Source: Nitrospinae bacterium RIFCSPLOWO2_12_FULL_45_22 (GTDB lineage: Bacteria; 2-12-FULL-45-22). From it: DNA of 12,933 nt. Position numbers and translations under genes: made by a program. Location of the stretch: assembly GCA_001803565.1 (NCBI GenBank), contig MHDQ01000069.1:1-12933 (forward strand), written 5' to 3'. Shown here one piece after another: positions 1-12,933 of the stretch (position 1 is its first letter; each line of letters starts with the position of its first letter). The notes beneath the pieces are model-generated. The model was given only the letters and a program-made list of their open reading frames with translations. It was not told the DNA's origin and did not search any database.

Positions 1-972
1 AAGATATTGATTACTGGTGGCGCAGGGTTTATTGGTTCTCATCTGGCAGAGGAATTGATCTGCCGGGGTGACGAGGTCTATATAATTGATGACCTTTCTA
101 CCGGCACCTTAAATAACATAAACCATCTGCGGGAACACAAAAATTTTCACCTCGTGATTGATACTATCCTTAACGAAGGGGTGATGAATGAGCTGATCAA
201 TAAATGTGATCAGGTCTATCACCTGGCCGCCGCGGTAGGTGTGAAGCTCATCATGAATAAACCGGTAGAAACCATAGAAACCAATGTGAAAGGTACAGAG
301 ATCATCTTGAGATTAGCCAATAAGTTCAAGAAGAAGGTCTTATTAGCCTCTTCCTCGGAGGTTTACGGAAAGTCTCTGGAGATCAATGGTGCTAATGAAA
401 CTCTAAGCGAAACAGATGACCGGCTCTTAGGGGCTACCAGTAAGAGGCGTTGGGCATATGCCTGTTCCAAGACTATTGATGAATTCCTGGCCCTGGCTTA
501 TTATGAAGAGAAGAGACTGCCAGTAATCATTGTCCGCTTCTTCAATACCGTGGGTCCCAGGCAGACCGGGCAATATGGCATGGTGGTGCCAAATTTTGTC
601 CAGAAGGCCCTGCTCGGAAGGCCCATTACGGTTTATGGTGATGGTAACCAGACTCGGAGCTTCATTTATGTGGGGGATACGGTGCGGGCTATTATTGATC
701 TTATGACCTGTCCGGCCGCTATAGGCCAAATAATTAACCTGGGGTCAGGTAAAGAGATCTCTATAGCCGAATTGGCTAAAAAGGTCAAAGAAATGACCCG
801 TAGCTCTTCAGAGATTATCTATATTCCTTATGCGCAGATCTATGGCCCGGGATTTGAAGATATGCAACGCCGGACACCCAATATTAATAAGGTCAGGGCC
901 CTTATAGGATTTGAGCCAAAGATCACATTAGAAGAGATGCTCCGGAGTGTAATCGAATATTATCAGGATTAG
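1..972 (+). CDS. NAD-dependent nucleotide-sugar epimerase/dehydratase (5' end outside window)
   Basis: Extended short-chain dehydrogenase acting on a nucleotide-activated sugar in the cytoplasm, most like the UDP-glucose 4-epimerase / dTDP-glucose 4,6-dehydratase / UDP-glucuronate decarboxylase branch. Counting the AAG at base 1 as residue 1, the NAD-binding glycine motif TGGAGFIG lies at residues 5-12, the SSS of the active site at about 117-119, and the catalytic Tyr-x3-Lys (YACSK) at 153-157. The NTVGPRQ and YGDGNQTRSFIYVGD segments are typical of the sugar-binding half. The frame is open to base 1 and only one or a few N-terminal residues should be missing. An internal TTG at base 7 could be mistaken for the start, but it falls inside the conserved beta strand. 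The protein is otherwise full length. It ends 7 nt before the next gene, suggesting one surface-polysaccharide operon. The exact sugar substrate cannot be told. Confidence 0.9.
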   Translation, partial: KILITGGAGFIGSHLAEELICRGDEVYIIDDLSTGTLNNINHLREHKNFHLVIDTILNEGVMNELINKCDQVYHLAAAVGVKLIMNKPVETIETNVKGTEIILRLANKFKKKVLLASSSEVYGKSLEINGANETLSETDDRLLGATSKRRWAYACSKTIDEFLALAYYEEKRLPVIIVRFFNTVGPRQTGQYGMVVPNFVQKALLGRPITVYGDGNQTRSFIYVGDTVRAIIDLMTCPAAIGQIINLGSGKEISIAELAKKVKEMTRSSSEIIYIPYAQIYGPGFEDMQRRTPNINKVRALIGFEPKITLEEMLRSVIEYYQD

Positions 973-979
973 AAACCAT

Positions 980-2749
980 ATGCCCTATGCCTACTTATTT
1001 TCTTTTTTGACCGCCTTAGGCTTAGCCCTGGCCCTAACCCCCATCATAAGGCGATTGGCCTTGCGCTGGGGGTATGTGGATAGGCCTAAAGAGGATCGCT
1101 GGCACCGGGAGCAGACGGCCATTTTGGGTGGTGTGGGGATCTATCTTGCCTTTCTGCTGACCACTATATTATTCTTGCCTATAGCACAAATCCCTACCCT
1201 CCAGGGACTGGTGCTCGGGGCAAGCGCCATATTTTTATTGGGCTTATGGGATGACATGAGGGGTATGAAGCCCGTACATAAGCTCTTAGGCCAGGGGCTA
1301 ATAGCTATTATGATGGTAGTACCCTATGGGATAGAGATAACAGCCCTTCCTTATCAGTTTATTGCCATACCGCTGACTATCCTGTGGCTGGTAATGATAA
1401 CCAATGCCTTTAATCTGCTGGATAATATAGATGGACTCTGTGCTGGTGTGGTTTTTATTGCCTCTACTATCTTATCTATCCACTCCTATTTGAATGATCT
1501 TCATCTGGTAGGGAATCTGGGGGCTATTTTAGCCGGGACGTCCCTGGGCTTCCTCTATTATAATTTCAATCCTGCCAGGATATTTATGGGGGATTGTGGC
1601 AGCATGCTCTTAGGTTTTATCCTGGCAGTAGTAGCAATTATGGGCACCGGTCGGCATGTCTCTAATCTCTTGGTAACCCTGGCTATCCCAGTCTTGATCC
1701 TGGGCCTCCCTATCTTTGATACCCTATTTGTTACCTCTAGCCGCCAGGCCAGAAACCAACCCATTACGCAGGGTGGAAAAGACCATACCTCCCACCGGCT
1801 GGTATTCCTCGGTTTATCCGAGCGGAAGGCCGTCTTATTGCTCTATTTTATCGCTGCCCTATGTGGCGCTATTGCCCTCTTTTACCACAGATTAGATGCG
1901 ATCATGGTGAGTGTATTAGGTGCTTTGACCCTGATTATCCTATTTCTATTCGGACTATTTTTGGGTGAAGTAGAGGTCCATGCTGATAAGAAAGGGGACA
2001 ACCATTCGCTGGTTCCGAAAATACCCTGGGTCTATCAACGCCGATTTTGGGAATTATTGATGGATATGGTTTTGATAATTATATCATTTGTCAGCGCCTA
2101 TCTTATCCGTTTTGAAGGGGGCATTCCGCCTGAATTTAAACCGGCTCTCCTGAAATCCCTTCCCTTAATTATTATTTTAAAGCTGGCCTCTTTCTACTAT
2201 TTCGGTCTATATCGAGGACTCTGGCGCTACATAAGTATCCATGACCTGGTGGCTATCTTCAAAGCAGTATCGCTCGGCTCTATCCTGTGCGTCTTTAGCA
2301 TGACTATAATCTTTAGGTTTGAGGATTATTCCCGGGGCGTCTTTGTGATTGATTGGCTCCAGATGATAATCCTGGTCTCTGCCGTGCGGATATTGCAGCG
2401 GGTATGGAAAGAGGCCTTTGCTGCGCTTAGTCAGGGGGAAAAACGGGTATTGATTATGGGTGCCGGTGATGCAGGTGAGATGGTCTTACGGGAGATCAAG
2501 AATAATCGCCATCTGAATTACCAGCCCATAGGTTTTCTGGATGATGATCCTAAGAAGATTGGCTGCCGTATCCATGGCTTACCTGTCTTAGGGAGCCGCA
2601 GAGATATTCCCGTCTTCGTCCCGCAGAAAAGGATTGATGAGATATTAATCGCTATTCCTTCCGTCAGGGAATACGATTTAGAAGAGATAATAGGTTACTG
2701 TACCAAGAGCGGTGCTGGTTACCGGGTCATAGCCGGCATAATTGGGTAA
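980..2749 (+). CDS. WecA/MraY-type sugar-phosphate transferase fused to truncated CapD/FlaA1-like membrane and Rossmann region
   Basis: Integral membrane protein of 589 residues with two modules. Residues 1 to about 330 form a multi-helix glycosyltransferase family 4 domain that transfers a sugar-1-phosphate from a UDP-sugar to undecaprenyl phosphate. It shows the Asp pair in LGLWDDMRG (87-95), NAFNLLDNIDGL (142-153), FMGDCGS (203-208) and the DHTSHRL histidine motif (268-274). From about 350 a second module begins with membrane helices and the YRGLWRYIS signature (411-419) of CapD/FlaA1/PglF proteins, followed by a nucleotide-binding fold with VLIMGAGDAGE (490-500) and GFLDDDPKKIG (518-528). 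In complete CapD proteins a catalytic SDR dehydratase domain comes next; here the frame stops at that boundary. It likely starts a lipid-linked glycan in the envelope. Whether the second module is regulatory, works with the upstream separate epimerase, or is a remnant is inference. Confidence 0.85.
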   Translation: MPYAYLFSFLTALGLALALTPIIRRLALRWGYVDRPKEDRWHREQTAILGGVGIYLAFLLTTILFLPIAQIPTLQGLVLGASAIFLLGLWDDMRGMKPVHKLLGQGLIAIMMVVPYGIEITALPYQFIAIPLTILWLVMITNAFNLLDNIDGLCAGVVFIASTILSIHSYLNDLHLVGNLGAILAGTSLGFLYYNFNPARIFMGDCGSMLLGFILAVVAIMGTGRHVSNLLVTLAIPVLILGLPIFDTLFVTSSRQARNQPITQGGKDHTSHRLVFLGLSERKAVLLLYFIAALCGAIALFYHRLDAIMVSVLGALTLIILFLFGLFLGEVEVHADKKGDNHSLVPKIPWVYQRRFWELLMDMVLIIISFVSAYLIRFEGGIPPEFKPALLKSLPLIIILKLASFYYFGLYRGLWRYISIHDLVAIFKAVSLGSILCVFSMTIIFRFEDYSRGVFVIDWLQMIILVSAVRILQRVWKEAFAALSQGEKRVLIMGAGDAGEMVLREIKNNRHLNYQPIGFLDDDPKKIGCRIHGLPVLGSRRDIPVFVPQKRIDEILIAIPSVREYDLEEIIGYCTKSGAGYRVIAGIIG

Positions 2750-2762
2750 TAGGTCATTAGGT
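2741..2762 (+). repeat. Short degenerate tandem repeat at the 3' end of the transferase gene
   Basis: Three consecutive, imperfect 7-8 bp units (ATTGGGT, AATAGGT, CATTAGGT) run from 2741 to 2762. The first unit supplies the last codons and the stop of the transferase fusion. The remaining 77 bases up to the convergent thiolase stop contain a short GGGAA/TTCCC inverted pair and no gene that I can support. No convincing T-rich terminator was seen for either converging unit. Confidence 0.4.
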
Positions 2763-2839
2763 AGGGGAAGGATTCATTTCCCAATAGACGGAAATTTACA
2801 CGAGATCCCAGAGGTGTACGTTATGAAGTGGACTGTTCC

Positions 2840-4009
2840 TTATATTTTCAGGATATTTATGGTGACGGAGGAGACTTCGGCTAGCTCCAGGCTCTCCTGG
2901 AAGCCACCAGCGCAATGGGTAAGACCTATGCGGGCACCGGCTACTTGCCGTTCACCAGCTTGCTGCCGGAGTTGCCAGACTATCTCGGCTATCTGGGCAA
3001 TACCGGTAGCACCCAGGGGATGCCCTTTGGATAATAGCCCACCACTGGTATTAACCGCTACTTTACCACCGATCTGACTGTGTCCTTCAGCAATAAATCT
3101 ACCACCCTCACCTTTAACACAGAAGCCCAGGTCTTCATAATGGACGATCTCGGCCGGGGTAAAGCAGTCATGCACCTCAGCAACATCAATATCTTGCGGG
3201 CCGATCCCTGCCCGCTCATAGGCTTCCTGAGCGCCTTTGACGGTTGCACCCAGTGAGGTTATCTCCCGCCCTTGCTTATATTCCCCGGAACGTAGGACTG
3301 ATGCGGCTACAGTGATGGGTTTAGAGGAGTATTTTTTCGCTATCTTTTTACTGGCCAGGATAGCAGCAGCCCCACCATCACCCGTCGGGCAACAACTGAG
3401 CAAGGTTAAGGGCTCGACTATTACTGGGGCATGCAAGACCTCTTCAATGGTTACTTCTTTACGGTACTGAGCCCGGGGGTTGTAGCAGGCATTCTTGCGG
3501 TTCTTTACCGCTACCATGGCCAGTTGCTCACGGGTAGTGCCAAAGTCGTACATATGGCGCATAGCCATCTGGGCAAAAAAGGTTGGGGGTGAAAAGCCCA
3601 TAGCGGTCAATAGCTCTACACCGTCCGAGGTCAGTGGTTTACCCTTGGTGGCCCGGGCCGTAAGCTGCTCTACACCAATAGCCAGCACCAGGTCATATAG
3701 GCCAGAGGCAACGGCTAACCAGGCATCCCGAAAGGCCGTGGAGCCACTGGCACAGAAGTTACCTACGCTAGAGATAGGTATGCCTGAGATGCCCAGTTCC
3801 CAGAGGATAGATTGGCCTACACCACACTCGCGGCCCAGGAGCCTACCGGTACGGGCATGGCCACAATAAGCCGCCTCGATAGCCGTAGGAGGAATATTGG
3901 CATCTTTGATGGCTTCCCAGCAGGATTCGCGGCCTAGCGCTAAGATACTTTTATCTGGAAACTTACCAAATGGGGTCATCCCCACACCAATAACATATGC
4001 TTCACGCAT
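2840..4009 (-). CDS. SCP-x-type thiolase (acetyl-CoA acetyltransferase family)
   Basis: Thiolase of 389 residues, the usual length, catalysing CoA-dependent cleavage of a 3-oxoacyl-CoA (or the reverse condensation) in the cytoplasm. The nucleophilic cysteine is Cys86 in NFCASGS, the histidine is in GHPLGATG (329-336), and a C-terminal cysteine lies in HCAGG (365-369). HDCF at 280-283 is typical of the SCP-x/lipid-transfer thiolase branch, whose members often need a DUF35 zinc-ribbon/OB-fold partner, as in BbsA-BbsB of anaerobic toluene degradation. Such a partner is encoded upstream at 4767-5186, but here the two are separated by a small membrane-protein gene and a repeat element. The ATG has a GAGGGA ribosome site 7 nt upstream. 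It is the last gene of the minus-strand array and would perform the final cleavage of the ring-fission or beta-oxidation product. The substrate is not known. Confidence 0.9.
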   Translation of the reverse strand: MREAYVIGVGMTPFGKFPDKSILALGRESCWEAIKDANIPPTAIEAAYCGHARTGRLLGRECGVGQSILWELGISGIPISSVGNFCASGSTAFRDAWLAVASGLYDLVLAIGVEQLTARATKGKPLTSDGVELLTAMGFSPPTFFAQMAMRHMYDFGTTREQLAMVAVKNRKNACYNPRAQYRKEVTIEEVLHAPVIVEPLTLLSCCPTGDGGAAAILASKKIAKKYSSKPITVAASVLRSGEYKQGREITSLGATVKGAQEAYERAGIGPQDIDVAEVHDCFTPAEIVHYEDLGFCVKGEGGRFIAEGHSQIGGKVAVNTSGGLLSKGHPLGATGIAQIAEIVWQLRQQAGERQVAGARIGLTHCAGGFQESLELAEVSSVTINILKI

Positions 4010-4091
4010 TGTTCTATCCCTCGCTATGTTTTAATATCTTAATAAGCACTCGTCGCAGAAGCACAGGGAGCTGTGGTTCACGCTGAATAAG

Positions 4092-4559
4092 TCACAGCAG
4101 ATTAAACTTTTTCAGGGCCTCTGCTACCCTACTATCCGCTTTTGCTATCTCCCGCAGAGAATTGATAAGGCTCTTTAACCCCTTCTCATCCATCTCTTCT
4201 ATCTTTTCCTCTAGCTCCTTCGTCTTAGCTTCAAAGGGCCTGATCATCGTCCTCCGGTCCCAGATAGCAAAGCCTATGGTAAAGACCGTCAAAGCAGTAA
4301 ATATCCCGCTAATGATCCAGAGAAAGGTAAATAGCTGCTCGAACCTTTTATCTACCGAGTCCTTAAATTCTCCAAACCTTTTATCTACCTGCTCGAACCT
4401 TTTATCTACCGAGTCCTTAAATTCCTTAAGGGTAGCCTCCAGCCTTATAAGCCGGTCTCTATCCTGCAGGGTAAAGGGTACCTCTTGTGCCCATATCGGA
4501 CTACTCATACCCATAAGCCAGAAGAAAAGAAATACTTTGGTAAACGTTCTTAGCGCCAT
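4092..4559 (-). CDS. Small exported/membrane coiled-coil protein with internal repeat
   Basis: Protein of 155 residues with no function I can assign. A signal peptide is visible (basic MALRTFTK, hydrophobic core, likely cut after SPIWA at residue 24). A charged amphipathic segment with a duplicated 12-residue unit EFKDSVDKRFEQ at 46-57 and 64-75 follows, separated by a partial copy (VDKRFG). Next come one transmembrane helix at about 77-99, a basic stop-transfer (DRRTMIRP) and a second coiled-coil stretch rich in Glu and Lys (108-130). Proteins with DKRFE heptads before a membrane helix are common and usually called hypothetical. It probably sits in the inner membrane and oligomerises through the coils. 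It lies 82 nt upstream of the thiolase and 207 nt downstream of the DUF35 gene, so it interrupts the metabolic array and may be an insertion. A weak AGGATAGG ribosome site precedes the ATG. Confidence 0.7.
   Translation of the reverse strand: MALRTFTKVFLFFWLMGMSSPIWAQEVPFTLQDRDRLIRLEATLKEFKDSVDKRFEQVDKRFGEFKDSVDKRFEQLFTFLWIISGIFTALTVFTIGFAIWDRRTMIRPFEAKTKELEEKIEEMDEKGLKSLINSLREIAKADSRVAEALKKFNLL
4335..4424. repeat. Exact 36-bp direct repeat, two copies, inside the coiled-coil gene
   Basis: Bases 4335-4370 are repeated identically at 4389-4424, offset 54 bp (18 codons). Part of the unit (CCTTTTATCTACC) also occurs between them near 4377-4389. The repeat encodes the duplicated EFKDSVDKRFEQ coiled-coil unit. 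Perfect identity at all codon positions indicates a recent in-frame duplication, so copy number may vary between strains. Confidence 0.85.
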
Positions 4560-4577
4560 CTTGACCTATCCTATTTT

Positions 4578-4735
4578 GTAACAGTTCACGGGGATCAGTT
4601 GCCAGGGTTCAGGAAAATACTTTAAATTTCAAGAATTATCGATATTTGGAGGTTGTGATAGGGTTTAATAGCACTCTAGAGGTCTTTGAAAAAAGCCCCT
4701 CTGACAACTGATCCCTGACCCCTGTGAACTGTTAC
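4578..4735. mobile_element. MITE-like imperfect inverted-repeat element in the spacer
   Basis: The 207-nt spacer between the DUF35 gene and the coiled-coil gene is bounded by an inverted repeat. GTAACAGTTCAC at 4578-4589 is the exact reverse complement of 4724-4735, and GGATCAGTTG at 4592-4601 pairs exactly with 4705-4714; the right arm carries 7 extra bases between the two blocks. A further near-copy of the terminus, CAACTGTTAC, lies at 4750-4759 (9 of 10 matching 4726-4735). The interior is A+T rich, has no reading frame of note, and holds a small hairpin. Size, terminal repeats and lack of coding fit a non-autonomous miniature element or a dispersed intergenic repeat. No clear target-site duplication is seen, so mobility is inferred. 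Confidence 0.55.
4678..4702. other. Hairpin inside the inverted-repeat element
   Basis: AGAGG at 4678-4682 pairs with CCTCT at 4698-4702, and CTTT at 4684-4687 pairs with AAAG at 4692-4695 around a GAAA tetraloop, leaving a 1-by-2 internal bulge. The stem is short and no U-run follows, so it is not a typical intrinsic terminator. It may reflect the secondary structure of the element. Confidence 0.35.
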
Positions 4736-4766
4736 GTTTTAAGTATAGTCAACTGTTACCAATGCC

Positions 4767-5186
4767 TTATATGGGACAGAATTTATAGCCCAGGATATTA
4801 CGCCCTTCAGGGTCTTGTCTGATGGGCTCGATAACCAGTTCTAACTCCATACCTATACGTAGCGCTGAAGGCTCAATGCCCGTGATAAGGGCATAGACCC
4901 GCGGGCCTTCAGGCAAGTCTACATAGCCTAACACATAGGGTGCAGTGAACCCCTCGGGGGCCACCTGAACTATACAATAGGTGTATAACGTGCCTTTGTT
5001 GCTCAGCCGTATCTCTTCCATAGTCCCATCCTTATGGCAATGGGGACAGAGATAGCGTTTAGGGAAGAAATATGCCTGGCAAGCAGAACACCTGCTACCC
5101 AATAGTCTGGGAGCTTCTCCCGGTAGAGCCGGGTAAGTAAAAAGCCCTTCTTTTAACAAAACGGATTCTTTCGGATCATCAACCAT
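4767..5186 (-). CDS. DUF35 zinc-ribbon/OB-fold protein, thiolase partner
   Basis: Small protein of 139 residues with an N-terminal rubredoxin-like zinc ribbon (Cys33-x2-Cys36 and Cys47-x2-Cys50, in CSACQ and CPHCHKDG) and a C-terminal OB-fold (about 60-135), the usual DUF35 layout. Members bind acyl-CoA or form an obligate complex with SCP-x-type thiolases or acyl-CoA hydro-lyases; BbsA in 2-benzoylsuccinyl-CoA thiolase is the closest functional parallel known to me. The likely partner is the thiolase at 2840-4009. The start overlaps the end of the SDR gene by 8 nt and has a GGAGGG ribosome site, so the two are translationally coupled. It is the last tightly packed gene before the 207-nt spacer. 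A complex with the thiolase is inferred from family and context. Confidence 0.85.
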   Translation of the reverse strand: MVDDPKESVLLKEGLFTYPALPGEAPRLLGSRCSACQAYFFPKRYLCPHCHKDGTMEEIRLSNKGTLYTYCIVQVAPEGFTAPYVLGYVDLPEGPRVYALITGIEPSALRIGMELELVIEPIRQDPEGRNILGYKFCPI

Positions 5187-5922
5187 AACGCCCTCCGGTT
5201 ACATGAAGCACATCCCCGGTAATATAGCCTGCTTCATCGGAAGCCAGGAAGAGTATTGCATTAGCAATATCTATTGGCTCGCCTAATCTGCCCAGGGGAG
5301 TGCTCTGGATAGCCCGTTCAGCCACCTTTTCGTAATGAGCCAGGGTAATAACCCCTGGGGTTTTGATCAAACCTGGGGCAATAGCATTGACCGTGATATT
5401 GTACCTCCCTAGCTCCATAGCTAGCGACCTGGTTAAGCCCAGGATACCGGCTTTAGAAGAAGAATAGTTGGCCTGGCCCGGGTTACCCATATAGGCCCGG
5501 GAAGAGAGGTTGATGATCCGGCCATATTTCTGCTCTATCATATACTTGGCGGCAAACTGGGCACAGTTGAATGCCCCTTTCAGATTGACGTTGAGTACCA
5601 TATCCCAGTCTTCCTCGGTCATCTTCCTTATAGAGGTATCGCGGGTTATCCCGGCATTATTGACCAGGATATCTATCCGGCCAAAGGTCTTTACCGCGGT
5701 CTCGATCAGTTCCTCAGCTTCTTTCCGTTGAGAGACATCGGTCTTTACCGCAATAGCCTCGCGGCCCATGGCCTTGATCCTGTCGGCGGTTTGTTGGGCC
5801 GATGCCAGGTCAATATCAGAAACTACCACCCTGCCCCCCTCTTCTGCCAACCTGATAGCCGATGCCTCTCCTAGACCCCTCCCCGCTCCAGTTACCACTG
5901 CTACTTTGTCTTTTACTCTCAT
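5179..5922 (-). CDS. FabG-like short-chain dehydrogenase/reductase
   Basis: Classical SDR of 247 residues, the standard FabG length, oxidising a 3-hydroxyacyl-CoA-type alcohol to the ketone (or the reverse) with NAD(P). Visible motifs are TGAGRGLG (11-18) for cofactor binding, NNAG (88-91), catalytic Ser140, Tyr153 and Lys157 (Tyr-x3-Lys in YSSSK), and the PG motif at 183-184. Asp36 after the second beta strand (VVVSDID) suggests a preference for NAD(H), which fits a catabolic dehydrogenase. It sits between the MaoC hydratase and the DUF35 gene, so it would oxidise the alcohol formed by the hydratase before thiolysis. An AAAGGAGG ribosome site (5932-5939) overlaps the stop of the MaoC gene, 9 nt before the ATG. 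The substrate is not known; fatty-acid synthesis is less likely in this setting. Confidence 0.9.
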   Translation of the reverse strand: MRVKDKVAVVTGAGRGLGEASAIRLAEEGGRVVVSDIDLASAQQTADRIKAMGREAIAVKTDVSQRKEAEELIETAVKTFGRIDILVNNAGITRDTSIRKMTEEDWDMVLNVNLKGAFNCAQFAAKYMIEQKYGRIINLSSRAYMGNPGQANYSSSKAGILGLTRSLAMELGRYNITVNAIAPGLIKTPGVITLAHYEKVAERAIQSTPLGRLGEPIDIANAILFLASDEAGYITGDVLHVTGGRYG

Positions 5923-5937
5923 GGCCCTTTTCCTCCT

Positions 5938-6387
5938 TTACCTTCTAGCGATCATCATCGTAGTCTCTCCCTGTTGCACCACCTCTCCCCGCTGATTCAT
6001 CACGGTCCTTTCTAATACAATAATACCGCGATCTGGCTTTTTAGTCTCCTTCTTCTCTATGAGTTTGACCTTTACAGAGATAGTATCACCCATCTTTATC
6101 GGCCCGGCAAATTTCCAATTCAGGCTCAGGAAGGCCATCAGGGATTTTTGGATCCGTTGCATAAACTCCGTCCGGGTAAACAGTCCTGAGGCAATAGCCA
6201 GGCCCAGGAGGCCATGGGCTATCCGGCCCTGGAAGATGGTGGTCTTGGCAAACTCTTCGTTGGTATGAAGGGCGTTATAGTCGCCCGATAAGCCCGCAAA
6301 GGTCACGATATCGGCCTCTGTGACAGTGCGGGCCGGGGTGGTACATTCAAAGCCTACATCCAGGTCTTCATAATACCAGTCAGTCAT
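5938..6387 (-). CDS. MaoC-like (R)-specific enoyl-CoA hydratase
   Basis: Single hot-dog domain of 149 residues of the MaoC/R-hydratase family, adding water to an enoyl-CoA double bond. The hydratase signature is clear: Asp36 and His41 in GDYNALH form the catalytic pair, followed by the GRIAHGLLGLA segment (54-64) that contributes to the CoA pocket. Its start overlaps the stop of the PHP gene by 4 nt (ATGA), and an AAGGGGGT ribosome site precedes it. The SDR follows 15 nt downstream, so the products would act in sequence: hydration, then alcohol oxidation. No anomaly in length or motifs. The acyl substrate cannot be deduced; an alicyclic or side-chain enoyl-CoA would suit the operon. Confidence 0.9.
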   Translation of the reverse strand: MTDWYYEDLDVGFECTTPARTVTEADIVTFAGLSGDYNALHTNEEFAKTTIFQGRIAHGLLGLAIASGLFTRTEFMQRIQKSLMAFLSLNWKFAGPIKMGDTISVKVKLIEKKETKKPDRGIIVLERTVMNQRGEVVQQGETTMMIARR

Positions 6388-7064
6388 TTATCAGACCCCC
6401 TTTCCATTAGTGGTTCCCTACTCCCGGCCTTTACTCTACCCTCTTTCAGGGCTTCCACCAATTCTCTTTCGCAACTTACCCCATCATCAAAGATAGTAAA
6501 AAATTTCCCTACATCTTTGGCACAATGAGCATCGCTACCACCGGTAGCTACCAGATTTAGCTCTCTACTCACTTCTAAGGCCATAAGGTTTTGTATATCC
6601 AGGTCATTGCCATTATATGTCTCCATACCATCTACCCAGCGCAGGAGGATCCTGGAGCAGACTTCCTGGATTTTTTTATAAAATATCTCGGTCCGGTAAC
6701 TGTCCTGGGATAAGAAGACGCTCCGTAAGGGATGAGCAGCTATTATAGCCCCACCTATTTGGTTGACAATGCCCCTGATCTTTCTTACCGAGATGACCTC
6801 CCGAATCTCTTCGAGGAGCTCAGGAATATGTTCAGAAAATAGGAGTATATCGCCCTCCAGGGTAACCATCTCTACCCCCTGGAGAACCGTGATGCCGTAT
6901 CTCTGGGATAAGTCCTGGATAAAGGTAGGGTCATGGACTTTATTATGCTCTGTCAGGCATACTCCATCCAGACCTATCTCTTTGACCCTCTGCACCAGTT
7001 CCTCTGGCGGCATAATGCTGCACGTAGAGGCTGGCCGGGTATGGGTATGCAAATCAATAATCAT
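6384..7064 (-). CDS. PHP-domain metal-dependent phosphoesterase-like protein
   Basis: Protein of 226 residues made of one PHP domain. The metal-binding set is complete: HxH at 6-8 (DLHTHTR), TEHN at 38-41, Glu65 in GVEM, His111 in AAHPLR, Glu148 in METYNG, and Asp178/His180 in GGSDAH. Relatives include histidinol-phosphatase-like and nucleotide phosphatase/nuclease proteins of the YciV type. This fold normally hydrolyses phosphoesters, which has no obvious place in a CoA-ester pathway, so a role in housekeeping of CoA, cofactor or nucleotide metabolism, or an unrelated hydrolysis, is open. It starts 12 nt after the FmdB-type gene without a recognisable Shine-Dalgarno sequence, so translation probably depends on coupling. 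Its TGA overlaps the MaoC ATG. Confidence 0.85.
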   Translation of the reverse strand: MIIDLHTHTRPASTCSIMPPEELVQRVKEIGLDGVCLTEHNKVHDPTFIQDLSQRYGITVLQGVEMVTLEGDILLFSEHIPELLEEIREVISVRKIRGIVNQIGGAIIAAHPLRSVFLSQDSYRTEIFYKKIQEVCSRILLRWVDGMETYNGNDLDIQNLMALEVSRELNLVATGGSDAHCAKDVGKFFTIFDDGVSCERELVEALKEGRVKAGSREPLMERGSDK

Positions 7065-7076
7065 TATATCAAAATA

Positions 7077-7319
7077 TCAGGAGCGGGGGAAGAACTGTTG
7101 TTTTTCTCTGTTGCTCAGGGTAGGGTCATGCAAGATATCGCGGGCACCATATCTCCTATCAAATAGGTATACGCCGGCTTTTTTCGAGCCATGAGAGAGG
7201 GATATCTTACGATAGGCTTCACTGGCGCATAATTTACAAGTCGGTAAAACGGGATCATCTATCCGCTGGATAGCTTCAAACTCATGACCATTATCACAAT
7301 AATATTCATAAATAGGCAT
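7077..7319 (-). CDS. FmdB-type small zinc-ribbon protein
   Basis: Protein of 80 residues beginning MPIYEYYCDNGHEFE, the hallmark start of the FmdB/regulatory zinc-ribbon family. The usual first CxxC is replaced by Cys8 followed by Asn-Gly-His12; the second pair Cys28-x2-Cys31 is present. His12 may serve as fourth ligand, as in other family members with the CxNGH variant. The C-terminal half (about 45-80) is basic and polar with no motif that I recognise. The family takes its name from a gene next to formamidase; no biochemical role is well established, although such ribbons often accompany enzymes of one-carbon, amide or anaerobic metabolism. The gene starts 3 nt after the upstream 118-residue gene, with its GGAG site inside that gene's end, so the two are coupled. 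Confidence 0.8.
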   Translation of the reverse strand: MPIYEYYCDNGHEFEAIQRIDDPVLPTCKLCASEAYRKISLSHGSKKAGVYLFDRRYGARDILHDPTLSNREKQQFFPRS

Positions 7320-7322
7320 TTT

Positions 7323-7679
7323 TTATTTTTTCTCCATCCTATCTCTAAGCAGGGACCTTATTACATCGCTCCGTCTACCGATGCTTTTATCGGACTTCTT
7401 GATCTCTAGCACGATTTCATCTGGTTCTATCTCCTCCAGTATCTCCAGATACCAGGGATTATCTGGCCGTTCTTCTGGCTTATGACCTGCCCGGCCATAG
7501 AACCATAGGATATCACTATCTGGCAAGTCCTCCTTGCTACGTCGGAGGACAGCTTTTATCCTCTTTTCTTCAAAGGTATCGGCATCCCTGACCTGAAGCT
7601 CTATCGGTATGCCTTCCGGTGGGTCTTCATCCTTCACACCCCACCCCTTTCCCTTAATTAGATGATACTCTTTCGCCAT
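7323..7679 (-). CDS. Unrecognised 118-residue acidic/basic protein linked to UbiD
   Basis: I do not recognise a family. The protein is soluble, highly charged, free of cysteine and without signal peptide or membrane segment. The N-terminal half is beta-rich in appearance (EYHLIKGKGWGV, IPIELQVRD, KRIKAVLRR), the middle has aromatic residues (DILWFYGRAGHKP, NPWYLEILEEIEP), and the C-terminus is a basic helix (101-118). The coding call is supported by a GGGGAG ribosome site 8 nt before the ATG, close packing (16 nt after UbiD, 3 nt before the zinc-ribbon gene) and a full-length uninterrupted frame. Position directly after a UbiD gene suggests an accessory or small subunit, as some multi-subunit UbiD carboxylases have, but this is inference from location only. 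Confidence 0.75.
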   Translation of the reverse strand: MAKEYHLIKGKGWGVKDEDPPEGIPIELQVRDADTFEEKRIKAVLRRSKEDLPDSDILWFYGRAGHKPEERPDNPWYLEILEEIEPDEIVLEIKKSDKSIGRRSDVIRSLLRDRMEKK

Positions 7680-7695
7680 TTTGTCTTCTCCCCTT

Positions 7696-9186
7696 TCAAG
7701 AATCTAGACCATACTCCTTCCATCTTCTGGTGATAAGCTCTTCCGTTTCAGGAGTAATATCGGTAGCCAACGGGGGATAGATATCACCACCATATTGCTC
7801 TTGCCGCTCCAGTTCCCAGTTTTTTGTGGCATCAATAAGCATCCGGGTCCATTTTCCCTGACCATATTTAAAGATATTCCTTTGCTCCAAAGGAACACTA
7901 GGGTCCAACATAGAACCTATTGTGCCAGGAAATAATATTACGTCACCCATGCCAGCATTGACCCGGTAAGCCATGGCCCACTCCAGGGCCTCCTCGTCGA
8001 ATATATCTATATCCTCATCTACGACAATTAGGTGCTTGGCAGCATAGTTGCACAGGGAGGAACTCCAGAGGGCATTAGCTACTTGTTTAGCATGTCCCCG
8101 ATACATTTTATGTATTTGTACCCGCATGTTAGTGCTGCAGGTTACTGGATTGGCCCATACTCCAAGAACACCGGGTACGCCAACCAGGTTCAAAAAATTC
8201 CAGGCCACCGCACAAAACCCTGCAGCAGCATAATGGGCACTTTCAGCCCATCTATGAGGGCTGGTCCCTTCCAAGCTCCCCATAAATATCGGGTCATCAC
8301 GGTGGGTAATACATTCTACCTTGATCCTGGGCTTAGGGGATCTCATCCCGCCATAGTATCCCGGATATTCACCAAAGGGTCCCTCCATTTCATAGGTATT
8401 GGGATCCGCAGAGATATATCCTTCAATAACCATCTCTGCCTTTGCTGGGATCAGAAGGTTTGAGGTCTCACATCTCACCAGCTCTACTGGCTCTTGCCTC
8501 AATGCCCCGGTTATTTCATATTCAGAGTATCCCTTGTGCTGGTGGGGGGTTGAGGCATTGATGAACAGGGTTGGATCCCCTCCATATACCACTGCTACCG
8601 GCATGTCCTCCCCCCGCTCCCTATATTTAGCAAAATGTATTCCCCAATGCTGCGAAGCGGCCAATAAAACGGGTATAGTGCTTTTGCTTCCCAGCATCCC
8701 TCTATAGAGGCCGATATTGTGTTCTCCGGTATCGCGGTCCATGGTTACTACACCACAAAAGGTATTAAAATACCTTCCACCATCCAGATGATGCCATTTA
8801 GGGGTAGGAAATTGATAGAGGTCTACTTCATCACCTTTTACGATTTTCTCCTTTACGGGCCCACTTTTTACTATAACATTGCTGATGGGCTTGGAGAATC
8901 GTTCTTTCATTACCCTGACAATCTCTCTATAGGGTGTATCTTTAGGGAGGCCCAAAGCCAATGCCAGCCGCCTACGGGAACCAAGCCCATTAGTAAAAAG
9001 TCTGGTACATTTAGTATTATTATGATCCTTTATATTTTCAAACAATAAGGCTGGGCCTTCTTGGCCGAGTACTTTCCTGGTTATGGCCCCGATCTCAAGT
9101 TCCCAGTCCACTTCGGCCTCTATTCTCTTGAATTCACCCTCTACTTCCAGCCTTTCAATCCACTCTCTCAAATCATTAAAGGCCAT
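7696..9186 (-). CDS. UbiD-family prenylated-FMN-dependent (de)carboxylase
   Basis: Full-length UbiD protein of 496 residues, which adds or removes CO2 on aromatic or alpha,beta-unsaturated acids using prenylated FMN. Residues known from the fungal ferulate decarboxylase Fdc1 can be placed by spacing: Asn157, Arg162 (HNIGLYRGM) and His180 (SQHWGIHF) match Asn168, Arg173 and His191, and Glu268 and Glu273 (EGPFGEYPGYYGG) match the catalytic Glu277 and Glu282. The enzyme is therefore expected to be active. UbiD members carboxylate phenylphosphate, benzene and naphthalene in anaerobes, or decarboxylate 4-hydroxybenzoate and others; direction and substrate cannot be read here. No ubiX is in the window, so the cofactor must be made elsewhere. 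It lies between the OYE-type reductase (18 nt) and the unknown small protein (16 nt). Confidence 0.92.
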   Translation of the reverse strand: MAFNDLREWIERLEVEGEFKRIEAEVDWELEIGAITRKVLGQEGPALLFENIKDHNNTKCTRLFTNGLGSRRRLALALGLPKDTPYREIVRVMKERFSKPISNVIVKSGPVKEKIVKGDEVDLYQFPTPKWHHLDGGRYFNTFCGVVTMDRDTGEHNIGLYRGMLGSKSTIPVLLAASQHWGIHFAKYRERGEDMPVAVVYGGDPTLFINASTPHQHKGYSEYEITGALRQEPVELVRCETSNLLIPAKAEMVIEGYISADPNTYEMEGPFGEYPGYYGGMRSPKPRIKVECITHRDDPIFMGSLEGTSPHRWAESAHYAAAGFCAVAWNFLNLVGVPGVLGVWANPVTCSTNMRVQIHKMYRGHAKQVANALWSSSLCNYAAKHLIVVDEDIDIFDEEALEWAMAYRVNAGMGDVILFPGTIGSMLDPSVPLEQRNIFKYGQGKWTRMLIDATKNWELERQEQYGGDIYPPLATDITPETEELITRRWKEYGLDS

Positions 9187-9204
9187 TGTCCTTTTTCCTT
9201 TTTC

Positions 9205-11148
9205 TTAAATCCCCGAGGCTACCCGAATACCGCTTTCCATGGCCTCTGCTATCTTTTGCGGTTTAAGTTGGTCTCCAATAGTGTAGACCTCTGCCCCGAT
9301 ACCTGTCAAGTACTTCCCTAACTCCCCCTCGGGTTTCATACCCGCAGCAATTACAATATTATTTCCTTTAAAAAATTCCACTTCTCCATTTCGCTTTCCG
9401 TTAACACCATTTTCCGTTATCTCAATTATATTTACCTTAGTCTCCATCCTAACTCCAGCTTTTCCCAGCCTTTGCAATAGTTCCCACCTGACAGCCTTAG
9501 GTATATCACTTGCCAAGCGCTCCAGCATCTCTAAAATAGTTACTTTCTTGCCCCTTTGGGCCAAATACTCAGCAGTCTCACAGCCCACCATGCCTCCCCC
9601 GATAATAACCACCTCTTCGCCCACTTCCTTACGTCCGGTTAAGACCTCCAAAGCGGTAATGACATTCTTTCCTTCCGCTCCCGGGATGGAAGGAATTAAG
9701 GGACTGGCACCAGTCGCTACGATTACGGCATCGGCCATAATACTTTTTATCGCTTGAGGGGTAATTTCCTCTCCCAGCCTTACCTCCACCCCACTTTTCT
9801 CTACCTGGTGGTTCAGGTAATCCCTGAATTTACTAATCTCGTCCTTGTATGGTGGAATGGCTGCTATAATGAGTTGCCCCCCTAACTGGGAACCTTTTTC
9901 GCAAAGGGTGACCCGGTGTCCCCTTAGCGCTGCTACAGAAGCCGCCTCCATCCCAGCGGGACCGCCTCCAATAATCGCAATTTTCTTAGGCTTTGCGGAT
10001 GGCTTGATATCATACTGGCCTTCTCTTCCTGCTCGAGCATTAACACTACATATTACCCCGGTATCCACTGTCTCAAAGCAGCGGCAACAGCAGATACATG
10101 GTCGAATATCATCAAAACGGCCTTTTTTGGCCTTAATCGGAAGATCGGGATCAGCTATTAGCGCACGGGCTAGTGAAACCAAGTCCGCTCTTCCTTGAGA
10201 GATGATTTGTTCTGCTAGAATCGGATCGGTAATCCTACCATTGGCTGCTACCGGAATATTGACCGCCTGCTTGATTTCTTCAGCAAAAAAGATTTTAGCC
10301 CCTGGTGGAACCGAGCTTGTCAAAGAAGCAACGGAAGCCTCGTGCCATCCTCCCCCTATCACATCAATGGCACAGATACCCGCCTTTTCTAACATAGAGG
10401 CAATCAATTTACTATCCTCTAAAGTATAGCCACCCTCAATAAGCTGGGCCCCTGAAATTCGGCACATAAGGGGATAGTCCTCGCCAACACTTTTTTTACA
10501 ACTTTCTATAATCTCCAGTAGAAATCGCATCCTATTTTCAAAAGAACCGCCATACTGATCAGTTCGTTTATTTGTCAGGGGAGATATGAACCGACTGACC
10601 ATATATCCGGTTGAGGCTATAAATTCAACAGCATCAAGGCCAGCCTCCTTTGCCCGGTGGGCCGCTTCTCCATAGGTAGTCATTATACTCTTAATTTCAT
10701 CAATAGTTAGTGCCCTTTCTACTGCATGCCTCTGGTCCAAGGGACCTCCTAGCCTAAAGGGGGTACCGGGGCGTTTGGAAAGAGAAGTACCCGAAGGGCC
10801 CACCAGCTCCACAGGGCCATCGCTAAATGACCAGTAATAGCCCGCACCAAACTGGGCAAAGATCTTTGCCCCATAGTTATGAACGACCTCGACTATCTCC
10901 TTGAGGCCAGGGATAAATTTGTCATCATATATACCCGGGAAGGGGCCCTGTTCTAATCTGGTAAGACCAAAAGACAAACCAATAAAACCTACTCCACCCT
11001 TTGCCCGTTCGGCATAAAAATTTTTCAAGCGATCAGTTACCATATCATCAACGGCATAACTGAGGGCTAAGGGCGGGAACTTTATCCTATTTGGCAACTC
11101 TATTGTTCCAATTCTAATGGGTTCAAATAACTTTTTTATCTGCTCCAT
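9205..11148 (-). CDS. Old-yellow-enzyme-family iron-sulfur flavoprotein (FadH / aryl-CoA reductase-like)
   Basis: Flavoenzyme of 647 residues reducing a conjugated double bond or ring of a CoA ester with NAD(P)H. Residues 1-345 form the FMN-binding TIM barrel, with Tyr182 (STGYMVSRF) and His269 (GGWHEA) at the places of the catalytic Tyr166 and His252 of E. coli FadH, and the NKRTDQYGGSFENR motif (193-206). A Cys-rich 4Fe-4S segment follows (Cys351, 353, 354, 355, 357, 367). The C-terminal half has two dinucleotide folds, IAIIGGGPAGMEA (390-402) and VVIIGGGMVGCE (513-524), for FAD and NAD(P)H. The 2-naphthoyl-CoA reductases share this layout, as do dienoyl-CoA and 2-enoate reductases. I chose the ATG at 11148, with GAGGAGG 5 nt upstream, over an in-frame start at 11199 that would run into the preceding gene. 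Confidence 0.9.
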   Translation of the reverse strand: MEQIKKLFEPIRIGTIELPNRIKFPPLALSYAVDDMVTDRLKNFYAERAKGGVGFIGLSFGLTRLEQGPFPGIYDDKFIPGLKEIVEVVHNYGAKIFAQFGAGYYWSFSDGPVELVGPSGTSLSKRPGTPFRLGGPLDQRHAVERALTIDEIKSIMTTYGEAAHRAKEAGLDAVEFIASTGYMVSRFISPLTNKRTDQYGGSFENRMRFLLEIIESCKKSVGEDYPLMCRISGAQLIEGGYTLEDSKLIASMLEKAGICAIDVIGGGWHEASVASLTSSVPPGAKIFFAEEIKQAVNIPVAANGRITDPILAEQIISQGRADLVSLARALIADPDLPIKAKKGRFDDIRPCICCCRCFETVDTGVICSVNARAGREGQYDIKPSAKPKKIAIIGGGPAGMEAASVAALRGHRVTLCEKGSQLGGQLIIAAIPPYKDEISKFRDYLNHQVEKSGVEVRLGEEITPQAIKSIMADAVIVATGASPLIPSIPGAEGKNVITALEVLTGRKEVGEEVVIIGGGMVGCETAEYLAQRGKKVTILEMLERLASDIPKAVRWELLQRLGKAGVRMETKVNIIEITENGVNGKRNGEVEFFKGNNIVIAAGMKPEGELGKYLTGIGAEVYTIGDQLKPQKIAEAMESGIRVASGI

Positions 11149-11153
11149 AAGTT

Positions 11154-11160
11154 CCTCCTC
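11154..11160 (-). promoter_or_regulatory. Ribosome binding site that fixes the start of the OYE-type gene
   Basis: GAGGAGG on the minus strand overlaps the TGA stop of the upstream BcrB-like gene (11159-11161) and stands 5 nt before the ATG at 11148. This supports residue 1 at MEQIKKLFEPI, which also matches where homologous proteins begin. Confidence 0.8.
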
Positions 11161-12448
11161 AATTCTTATTCCCTCCCGGGGTAAGGGCGAGAACGGCAAG
11201 AAATTCCTCTAAGGCTTCTTTCAGGGCTTTTTCAGTAGCCGATGAAGGGTCCAGCATGTCTAGATCAAAAGTAAGGGTAGGTATCCCTACCTTCTCTTTT
11301 AAGGTATCCTTCATTATCTTTGCTACCGCACCGCCCATCCTACACTTTGAATTAAACCAGTTAACAGCCCCATTTGCCTTGCTCTCTAGGGCGTCATTTA
11401 CCGCCATATCCAAGGATTCGGATAACTTTCCGTACCAGCGGTAGTAAGGTTCATGATAGTATTTACGCGCCAGGCTCTCCAGGGGCTTTGAGGGATCAGG
11501 AATCCACTCCTCCCACCTAAAATAATAAGGTTCTGAAACAATGGCCGCACAACGTTCATTCTCTAGCCAATCCAATACCTTCATCTGATGCTGAGGAGGG
11601 GTAAACAGGCTTATGAGGCGAAACTTTTCTTCAGTCGCAACCCCCTTCTTTTGATCTACCAACTCTTTCAGCTCATCCCTAAAGGTTTCAAAGTAATTGA
11701 TGCCTTCCTGTCTCCCCGCATAGAGCCAATAAAGCCAGTGGGCCTGAGTAGCTGCCCTGGCCCGCATAGGACACGGGGTAGCCATCCCCAGGGCATGGAT
11801 TTCTCGTATTAACTTCACCTGCTCCATGGATAATTTGTTCGCTTCGTTAAGCTTATCATAATCTAACTTCCGTTTCGTATGTTCTTCCAGAAAATAAACC
11901 AGGTCCTCTAATTCTCCAGTCATATATTCTACCCCCCGGTCATACCACCAATAGTAGGGACGGTCAACAAAAAAGGTAGGTATATCATAAAGCTCACCCA
12001 GGAGATGCCCATTTTTGCTCACATTATCGCACAGGGATAAATTGGTATATATAAGAGCAGCCGGGCGGGGGAACCACCCCTTGGAAAAAAAGCCGATGGG
12101 AAGCAACTGAGCAGAGCAAATCTCCGGCTTTATGCCTAGCTTCGATGCAGCATCAGTGCCTTCTTCATGGGCCTTTAAAACGGATGCTATAGCGCCAGCG
12201 GCCATATCGTATTCCATAGCGACAATACCCATGGCCTCAAAGATCTCATTAGGTATCCCCATGCTATAATAAATGAAGGGCTTCCCTGCGTCCTCGGCCG
12301 CCAGTATCTCCCGGAAATGCTTTGCCATTAGTTCATAATAAAGCTCTTCGCTTCGGGTGGTTGGGTTTCTTTTTCTATGTTCGTGGATCTTTTCCAAAAT
12401 AGTGGCTGCTTGGTTAAATTTACTCAAATCTATAGTATCTACTTTCAC
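11159..12448 (-). CDS. BcrB/HgdB-like subunit of benzoyl-CoA reductase or 2-hydroxyacyl-CoA dehydratase
   Basis: Iron-sulfur subunit of 429 residues from the HGD-D family, shared by class I benzoyl-CoA reductases (BcrB/BcrC) and 2-hydroxyacyl-CoA dehydratases (HgdA/HgdB). Three cysteines at conserved places can hold a 4Fe-4S cluster: Cys111 (EICSAQ), Cys140 (SLCDNVSK) and Cys369 (KCRMGGAVAK). The end of the domain (GIPTLTFDLDMLD) is also typical. Its length and the aromatic-rich middle (PYYWWYDR, YYHEPYYRWYG) are closer to BcrB-type large subunits, but I cannot separate reductase from dehydratase. Such enzymes need an ATP-dependent electron activator (BcrA/D or HgdC type), absent from this window. 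The start is a GTG with TAAGGAGGG only 3 nt upstream; an overlapping out-of-frame ATG is followed at once by TGA. The companion subunit is encoded just upstream. Confidence 0.88.
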   Translation of the reverse strand: MKVDTIDLSKFNQAATILEKIHEHRKRNPTTRSEELYYELMAKHFREILAAEDAGKPFIYYSMGIPNEIFEAMGIVAMEYDMAAGAIASVLKAHEEGTDAASKLGIKPEICSAQLLPIGFFSKGWFPRPAALIYTNLSLCDNVSKNGHLLGELYDIPTFFVDRPYYWWYDRGVEYMTGELEDLVYFLEEHTKRKLDYDKLNEANKLSMEQVKLIREIHALGMATPCPMRARAATQAHWLYWLYAGRQEGINYFETFRDELKELVDQKKGVATEEKFRLISLFTPPQHQMKVLDWLENERCAAIVSEPYYFRWEEWIPDPSKPLESLARKYYHEPYYRWYGKLSESLDMAVNDALESKANGAVNWFNSKCRMGGAVAKIMKDTLKEKVGIPTLTFDLDMLDPSSATEKALKEALEEFLAVLALTPGGNKN

Positions 12449-12457
12449 ATTCCCTCC

Positions 12458-12880
12458 TTACATTTCAATAAATTTCTCTAAAAAGGCCTCTACCCGGGTT
12501 CTTATCTGTCCACTAAAGCCTTCTCCATATTCTAAATCCAGTTCTATAACTGGCACGCCATTTTCCTTCAACTTTTCGGCCAGCAGAGGCTGATCATGGG
12601 CAATAGGGGCACAATTCCGTATTACCTGATTGATTACCCCTTTGACCCTATATTCTTTTGCTAACCCTACAACCTGATTGATTCTATCAGTCGGGGGCAC
12701 CATACGGGCGCAGGGGAATCCATTTAGATAACGTTTAGAGATCGCTTCCAGGGGATCAGTGTCTATACTGGTATCCACGGGGTTCCAACAGTATCTAGCC
12801 CCGGTACATAACTCATCTACTACCACAATGGCACCCAGGTCTTCTATCCCTTTTATAAATTCATAATTTTGCATATGCAC
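12458..12880 (-). CDS. BcrC/HgdB-like C-terminal piece, probably part of a split or frameshifted gene
   Basis: 140 residues matching only the C-terminal domain of the HGD-D family: IEDLGAIVVVDELCTG (12-27) with Cys25, the NCAPIAHDQP segment (89-98) with Cys90, and the closing EYGEGFSGQIRTRVEAFLE (117-135) typical of BcrC-type subunits. Full members have about 380-430 residues, so the N-terminal two thirds are missing. The frame has a stop at 12899-12901. A GTG at 12880 or an ATG at 12874 could start it after a GGAG site. Alternatively, the neighbouring frame is open to the window edge and reads KIFAGDK just before the junction; losing one A in a GACAAA run would explain the break and restore AGDKVHMQNY. 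I favour a frameshift or sequencing error, but a genuine short protein is possible. The BcrB-like gene follows 9 nt downstream. Confidence 0.65.
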   Translation of the reverse strand: MHMQNYEFIKGIEDLGAIVVVDELCTGARYCWNPVDTSIDTDPLEAISKRYLNGFPCARMVPPTDRINQVVGLAKEYRVKGVINQVIRNCAPIAHDQPLLAEKLKENGVPVIELDLEYGEGFSGQIRTRVEAFLEKFIEM

Positions 12881-12933
12881 TTGTCTCCGGCAAATATCTT
12901 ACAAAAACAACGTAACCTAGTAAAAATACTGCA

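Follow-up and report, generated by a model that had tools for sequence, protein, structure and literature searches.

The DNA analyzed here (the window) is contig MHDQ01000069.1, positions 1-12,933, of Nitrospinae bacterium RIFCSPLOWO2_12_FULL_45_22 (GCA_001803565.1). It carries an operon in which a two-subunit iron-sulfur protein of the HGD-D family (C and B subunits), an OYE-family flavoenzyme and a UbiD-family enzyme are encoded together with genes of a beta-oxidation type. The draft genome comprises 3.67 Mb in 321 contigs and is 85% complete. Of the 145 genomes reached as relatives, the remainder sharing only the domain, a single one (G001) belongs to the same order, and the lineage is therefore very sparsely sampled. 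The source genome is labeled G000, and C and L numbers denote contigs and loci (the window is C69).

Ten minus-strand genes occupy the stretch between 12880 and 4767, spaced by -8 to +18 bp, and a purine-rich stretch precedes the start codon in most of them. Two more genes lie downstream, the first after a 207-bp gap and the second after a further gap of 82 bp. The twelve features are as follows:

12458-12880, minus strand: BcrC/BzdN/DCCP-like subunit, C-terminal 140 residues (PF06050 133 bits, HGD-D profile positions 208-340 of 342; BzdN/DCCP/HadC alignments)
11159-12448, minus strand: BcrB-like catalytic-subunit homologue (PF06050 180 bits; profile alignment to HadB, BzdO and MbdO; tree)
9205-11148, minus strand: FMN/[4Fe-4S]/FAD OYE-family reductase of FadH/BaiCD/BilR/NCR architecture (family models, PDB match, residues, tree)
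7696-9186, minus strand: UbiD-family prenylated flavin mononucleotide (prFMN) (de)carboxylase (PF01977 214 bits; PDB 7pda 248 bits; alignments; tree)
7323-7679, minus strand: 118-aa UbiD-associated small protein, no Pfam family (homologues adjoin UbiD genes)
7077-7319, minus strand: FmdB-type zinc ribbon (PF09723 48 bits)
6384-7064, minus strand: PHP-family (CehA/McbA-like) metallohydrolase (PF13263 and PF02811 above cut-off)
5938-6387, minus strand: MaoC-type (R)-enoyl-CoA hydratase (PF01575 87 bits; Asp/His motif intact)
5179-5922, minus strand: FabG-like short-chain dehydrogenase/reductase (SDR), 3-hydroxyacyl dehydrogenase or 3-oxoacyl reductase (NF004198 307 bits, cut-off 296)
4767-5186, minus strand: DUF35 protein (zinc ribbon and OB-fold), thiolase partner (PF01796 and PF12172 above cut-off)
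4092-4559, minus strand: 155-aa secreted/membrane coiled protein (no Pfam family above cut-off)
2840-4009, minus strand: SCP2/Ltp2/BbsB-type thiolase (PF22691, PF00108; Cys-His-Cys intact)

The operon is real. An earlier note on this DNA had described ten closely spaced genes plus two downstream, forming a co-directional operon that unites decarboxylation, low-potential reduction and beta-oxidation; this description was borne out, and every gene that it named lies on that strand where listed above, with its Pfam family above cut-off. Three of its statements held in part. The gene list was correct in what it named but passed over three genes in the UbiD-MaoC interval (the 118-aa protein, the FmdB-like ribbon and the PHP metallohydrolase). 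The BcrC-like gene matches its family, but only the last 140 residues are present, cut at the contig end. Both members of the proposed DUF35-thiolase pair were found, but they are separated by the unrelated-looking secreted coiled protein, which is probably not part of the pathway. A 48% paralogue of this coiled protein (L059:6511-7059) likewise adjoins HGD-D genes and an activase.

The full BcrC-like protein would be about 385 residues long. The contig ends (12933) 53 bp upstream of the fragment, and those 53 bp are in a different frame; given that the bcrC frame is not continued in them, either the assembly cut the gene or a frameshift lies near the contig end. The ends of C143 and C96 (L062:5494-6054 and L103:1-524) carry N-terminal halves of C subunits belonging to the window's clade, one coming after two type III CoA-transferase genes and the other after a molybdopterin oxidoreductase gene. 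One of these two ends, neither of which overlaps the window, may be the lacking 5' side of the operon. The OYE-family gene most likely starts at ATG 11148 and not at TTG 11199. Promoter and terminator scans of the window gave results near chance, and no RNA families or tRNAs were found when the window was searched for them.

In the class I benzoyl-CoA reductase (BCR) of Aromatoleum, BzdN holds an [8Fe-9S] double cubane by six cysteines (36/73/100/263/293/327), and BzdO binds a [4Fe-4S] cluster via Cys95, Cys128 and Cys380; the acid/base residues of BzdO are Glu65 and His131 (PMC11971306). By alignment, the window C fragment keeps equivalents of Cys263, Cys293, Cys327 and Arg267, and hence all three of the double-cubane ligands that are assessable, the N-terminal half being absent from the contig. 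HadC has Ala at the Cys263 site. All six ligands are found in the nearest full-length sister paralogue, the C subunit on C109. The window B subunit retains all three [4Fe-4S] cysteines (residues C111, C140 and C369). A double cubane, if present, would favor stoichiometric two-electron reduction over catalytic dehydration.

In each of the two subunit trees the C109 pair came out as the sister of the window pair (100/98 and 99/97), which indicates that the C and B parts belong together. Both subunits fell in separate clades holding no reference sequence. These clades are uncharacterized as judged against seven family models and, for each subunit, four solved structures, a set that leaves out HgdAB, FldBC, phenyllactyl-CoA dehydratase, lactyl-CoA dehydratase, Thauera BcrBC and NcrBC. 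BzdO and BzdN grouped with other paralogues of the same genome (100/100), HadB/HadC and MbdO/MbdN were placed elsewhere, and in the C tree DCCP grouped with a paralogue on C93. Among the family models, the B subunit scored best on HadB (85 bits), followed by BzdO (53), DCCP (42) and BcrB (31), and the C fragment scored best on DCCP (115 bits), with 78 bits on BzdN; the BzdO and BzdN scores are far below their cut-offs (~450 bits), as is the HadB score (cut-off 750 bits). A B-subunit search of the 145 genomes returned matches only in the source genome and in the one same-order genome (32-33%).

Near-canonical BzdO (442 bits, cut-off 449; L101:4414-5724) and BzdN (438 bits, cut-off 454; L094:5399-6568) are encoded elsewhere in the genome (paralogues C153 and C43), and through them the organism may reduce benzoyl-CoA with a class I enzyme. 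Since such genes are present and the window pair scores so low, the window pair must be something else. The separate clades and the low BzdO/BzdN scores do not support a canonical class I pair, as had been proposed. Membership of the HadBC-type dehydratases was likewise rejected, by the trees and by the double-cubane cysteine that HadC lacks; the firm grouping with amino-acid dehydratases that the earlier note had named as the outcome counting against it was thus not seen. His131 was considered as a lone marker of BCR and dropped because MbdO, a 3-methylbenzoyl-CoA reductase subunit, is also without an equivalent, so that this residue alone is not decisive. Judged from its sequence, the pair appears to resemble both the BCR and the 2-hydroxyacyl-CoA dehydratase (HAD) types and to fail membership of either.

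The OYE-family protein had been considered a naphthoyl-type aryl-CoA reductase. Its best PDB matches are NCR (381 bits) and then FadH (323 bits), to which it is 35% and 37% identical, respectively. NCR is set apart by structural features that include loss of the pyridine-nucleotide-binding motif (PMC6502838). The window protein keeps the catalytic pair of NCR and FadH (Tyr182 and His269) and has equivalents of NCR Tyr197, Arg245, His284 and Phe375, but it is without NCR Tyr82, Glu341, Phe379, Trp459, Asn540-Glu541, Gln545 and Phe573. Its second domain reads GGGMVG, an intact nucleotide-binding motif, where NCR has GGNEIS. In the tree it grouped with a paralogue on C97 (98/96), and NCR paired with FadH (90/91, not starred). 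Residues and tree together rule out an NCR identity. Given that other type III reductases, including phenanthroyl-CoA reductases, are only ~31-35% identical to NCR, this exclusion is strong for NCR and weaker for type III as a whole. Scores on the BaiCD/BilR models were 481-494 bits (cut-offs 750-825). Our reading is that the protein uses NAD(P)H and acts as a reductase of dienoyl, enoyl or enone substrates.

In the UbiD protein, the E-R-E triad is present, and the Arg and EGPFGEY motif is intact. It scored 302 bits on the VdcC model (cut-off 650), and it forms one clade (100/99) with its three nearest relatives, two Clostridia metagenome-assembled genome (MAG) genes (53-55%) and one Dehalococcoidia MAG gene (53%). 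One of these relatives directly adjoins a benzoate-CoA-ligase-family gene (531 bits, cut-off 375), in agreement with the aromatic link that had been drawn for UbiD. UbiX and the activase, noted earlier as missing from the window, do lie outside it but were found elsewhere in the genome (UbiX at 264 bits, cut-off 188; ten BcrA/D-type activase matches). A UbiD scan of genome contigs recovered no shared gene order, only two relatives without the other operon genes. Multi-UbiD clusters, with two or three UbiD genes each, were observed at L056 (C5), L057 (C35) and L130 (G001:C56); they include small partners and ~300-aa Cys-rich proteins, and the cluster on C35 has a conserved counterpart in G001.

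The six homologues of the 118-aa protein in the loci sampled all adjoin UbiD genes, most of those loci having been sampled for UbiD, and none was found on the HGD-D contigs, which were chosen independently of UbiD. The window protein has neither a Pfam nor an NCBIfam match, and its fold prediction is a low-confidence beta-rich model (pLDDT 70) with no significant PDB match. Members of this family, 85-118 aa in length (7323-7679; L022, L122, L123, L124, L125), stand beside UbiD genes at several UbiD loci in two genomes. The neighboring zinc ribbon holds only one CxxC; a homologue lies between UbiX and UbiD in a Clostridia MAG (L131), and a close homologue follows a UbiD pair in G001. VdcC, another UbiD enzyme, requires the small zinc ribbon VdcD as its activator (PMC8379154), and by analogy we suggest the window ribbon as a possible VdcD-like activator.

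Catalytic motifs are intact in the thiolase (Cys, His, Cys), MaoC (Asp..His), SDR (Ser-Tyr-Lys) and DUF35 (two CxxC) proteins. The thiolase scored 289 bits on the BbsB model NF053628 (cut-off 750).

Gene content, spacing, family membership and these intact motifs are the basis of the reading that we hold with moderate confidence, namely that an anaerobic bacterium uses this operon to degrade an aromatic or cyclic unsaturated carboxylic acid in the form of its CoA ester. The steps, their order and the direction of the UbiD reaction are inferred. UbiD, with UbiX-made prFMN, the zinc ribbon and the 118-aa protein, would take a carboxyl group off (or put one on) an aromatic or alpha,beta-unsaturated acid, and CoA would be attached by an enzyme whose gene is not on this contig, either a ligase or a type III CoA-transferase. 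The C/B pair would be fed by a shared BcrA/D-type ATP-hydrolyzing activase, with electrons stored in the C-subunit [8Fe-9S] double cubane, and would carry out a low-potential two-electron reduction at the B-subunit [4Fe-4S] cluster. With NAD(P)H as reductant, the OYE-family protein would then reduce the dienoyl-CoA, enoyl-CoA or enone so formed, followed by hydration by MaoC, oxidation by the SDR and cleavage by the DUF35-thiolase pair. The PHP protein may act as a hydrolase of the route.

Several observations weigh against this reading. The window B subunit has Asp81 at the Glu65 site, where BzdO, MbdO, HadB and the seven nearest paralogues all have Glu, and Val143 at the site of the catalytic His131; Asp at the former site is common to three further B subunits of the genome (C146, C7, C279). 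The thiolase gene is outside the tightly packed part of the operon, and the gene order was recovered in no second genome. Additionally, no Oah/BamA ring hydrolase was found in the 85%-complete draft (best match 99.6 bits vs 464), and ring opening, if any, therefore probably does not follow the standard benzoyl-CoA route. Speculatively, the PHP hydrolase or the thiolase could open the ring.

Amino-acid or hydroxy-acid fermentation is an unlikely though plausible alternative. The pair would then be an unusual 2-hydroxyacyl-CoA dehydratase, the OYE-family protein an enoate reductase in a reductive Stickland-like scheme, and UbiD an enzyme acting on an acrylic acid such as cinnamate. The HadB model is the best match of the B subunit, which has Val at the His131 site as HadB does, the OYE-family residues are nearer to BaiCD/BilR-type enoate/enone reductases than to NCR, and acrylic-acid decarboxylases exist within the UbiD family. 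However, the HadB score is 85 of 750 bits, both subunits lie outside the HadB/HadC groups in the trees, and the C fragment has the double-cubane cysteine that is absent from HadC.

A biosynthetic or reductive use, in which MaoC, SDR, the OYE-family protein and DUF35-thiolase run synthetically and UbiD tailors the product, appears improbable. The SDR exceeds the FabG cut-off, the MaoC and thiolase reactions are reversible, and archaeal DUF35-thiolase partners also work in synthesis; however, the operon is without an acyl carrier protein, synthase or ligase, and paralogous HGD-D pairs elsewhere in the genome adjoin CoA-transferases, enoyl-CoA hydratases and activases.

The polycyclic pathway raised in the earlier note, in which, as in naphthalene degraders, an NCR-like aryl-CoA reductase would work without ATP and a class I reductase would deal with the last ring, is quite improbable. 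The kinds of genes do match the thn operon together with the OYE and UbiD loci of N47/NaphS2 (PMC12016498), NCR is the top PDB match of the OYE-family protein, and the residue test is not absolute given the low identity of phenanthroyl-CoA reductases to NCR. Against this, identity to NCR is no higher than to FadH, the NCR-specific residues are absent, the nucleotide motif is intact, and the pair is not of the Bzd/Ncr type although Bzd-type genes sit elsewhere in the genome. The proposal thus loses its main support, and no finding points to a polycyclic substrate. It is very improbable that unrelated genes lie together here by chance or that binning or assembly produced the arrangement. The 321-contig draft, the bcrC gene broken at the contig end and the lack of conserved synteny might suggest this, but ten genes stand on one strand a few bases apart, and the C subunit, the B subunit and the OYE-family protein all have their nearest relatives on other contigs of the same genome.

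For the catabolic operon, the novelty is in the gene combination and the reductase clade and not in a new kind of system. Few enzymes can break aromatic rings in the absence of oxygen; ATP-driven low-potential reductases with double cubanes are among them, and very few of these reductases have been characterized. With an uncharacterized clade and its probable partners in one operon, the window offers a testable enzyme set for a new ring-acid pathway.

The source genome contains 67 HGD-D matches, 35 of B type (catalytic) and 32 of C type, or ~33 C/B pairs. First-look counts across the 145 genomes were 68 in the source and 31 in G001, then 23, 18 and 12, with zero in 95. All six double-cubane ligands are present in 24 of the 26 complete C subunits, which makes double-cubane protein function addressable by comparison within one organism. 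LolA_like/DUF1329-type exported proteins were observed adjoining HGD-D pairs (L083:443-2965, L094:9115-10533); benzene degraders likewise have DUF1329 proteins in their Nanopod cluster (PMC13101534).

Three B subunits contain a single in-frame TGA (L083, C148:3053-4153; L082, C53:6777-7883; L058, C231:5340-6494), in all cases where the first [4Fe-4S] cysteine (BzdO Cys95) would stand. They lie on two separate tree branches, which suggests two origins. A C subunit of G001 (L134:8748-9761, equal to G001:C14:26748-27761) likewise has an in-frame TGA, which falls on the site of the third double-cubane cysteine (BzdN Cys100). Hairpins resembling selenocysteine insertion sequences start within ~15 bases of each TGA, a likeness by shape only in a kind of structure that is common by chance; the hairpin just downstream of the G001 TGA is strong. 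The source genome encodes tRNA-Sec (75 bits, gathering threshold 47) and SelB (372 bits, cut-off 242). Selenocysteine is thus predicted as a probable Fe-S ligand in the TGA-containing HGD-D subunits, none of which is in the window. The HGD-D family went unmentioned in those parts of a 2026 review of prokaryotic selenoproteins reached by the terms searched.

It is possible, and is advanced here tentatively, that a third functional class exists within the BCR/HAD family, consisting of ATP-driven heterodimeric double-cubane reductases that are neither BCR, 2-hydroxyacyl-CoA dehydratase nor DCCP. Such enzymes would have multiplied in an almost unsampled order that runs much of its carbon metabolism on them, some with selenocysteine at the active-site or double-cubane cluster. 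If so, the window operon would combine a member of this class with a prFMN decarboxylase.

Several characterized systems resemble parts of the operon and differ from them in other respects. With BzdNO (PDB 8S02), the pair shares the C-part cysteines and arginine, the three B-part cysteines and activases in the genome, whereas its clade, its model scores and the residues at the Glu65 and His131 sites differ. HadBC, the (R)-2-hydroxyisocaproyl-CoA dehydratase (PDB 3O3M), has in common the fold family, the [4Fe-4S] cysteines and Val at the His131 site, but the double-cubane cysteine is found only in the window pair, which scores well under the HadBC cut-off and stands outside its tree groups. DCCP (PDB 6ENO, 7YYL) is the best family model of the C part, the six ligands occurring in the nearest full-length paralogue; DCCP, however, is a homodimer with two double cubanes, whereas the window C and B parts are separate genes and B has a three-cysteine site. 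The OYE-family protein has the FMN barrel, [4Fe-4S] and FAD build of NCR (PDB 6QKG) and the four residue equivalents given above, but seven NCR site groups (Tyr82 to Phe573) are not conserved and its nucleotide motif is intact. With FadH, BaiCD and the long form of bilirubin reductase it shares architecture, the catalytic Tyr/His and the nucleotide-binding motif, although FadH His26 is not conserved. VdcBCD, the vanillate/4-hydroxybenzoate decarboxylase, likewise combines UbiD with a small zinc-ribbon neighbor, and UbiX is in the genome; the window differs by its extra 118-aa partner, its one-CxxC ribbon and its low VdcC score. BbsAB, the benzoylsuccinyl-CoA thiolase, is also a DUF35 and thiolase pair, but the window genes are not adjacent and the BbsB score is low. 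While the thn operon has Bzd-type NcrABCD, crotonases and acyl-CoA dehydrogenases, and the UbiD and OYE genes of its hosts are in other loci, it shares with the window the association of Bcr-like reductase genes with MaoC, thiolase, dehydrogenase and metallo-hydrolase genes.

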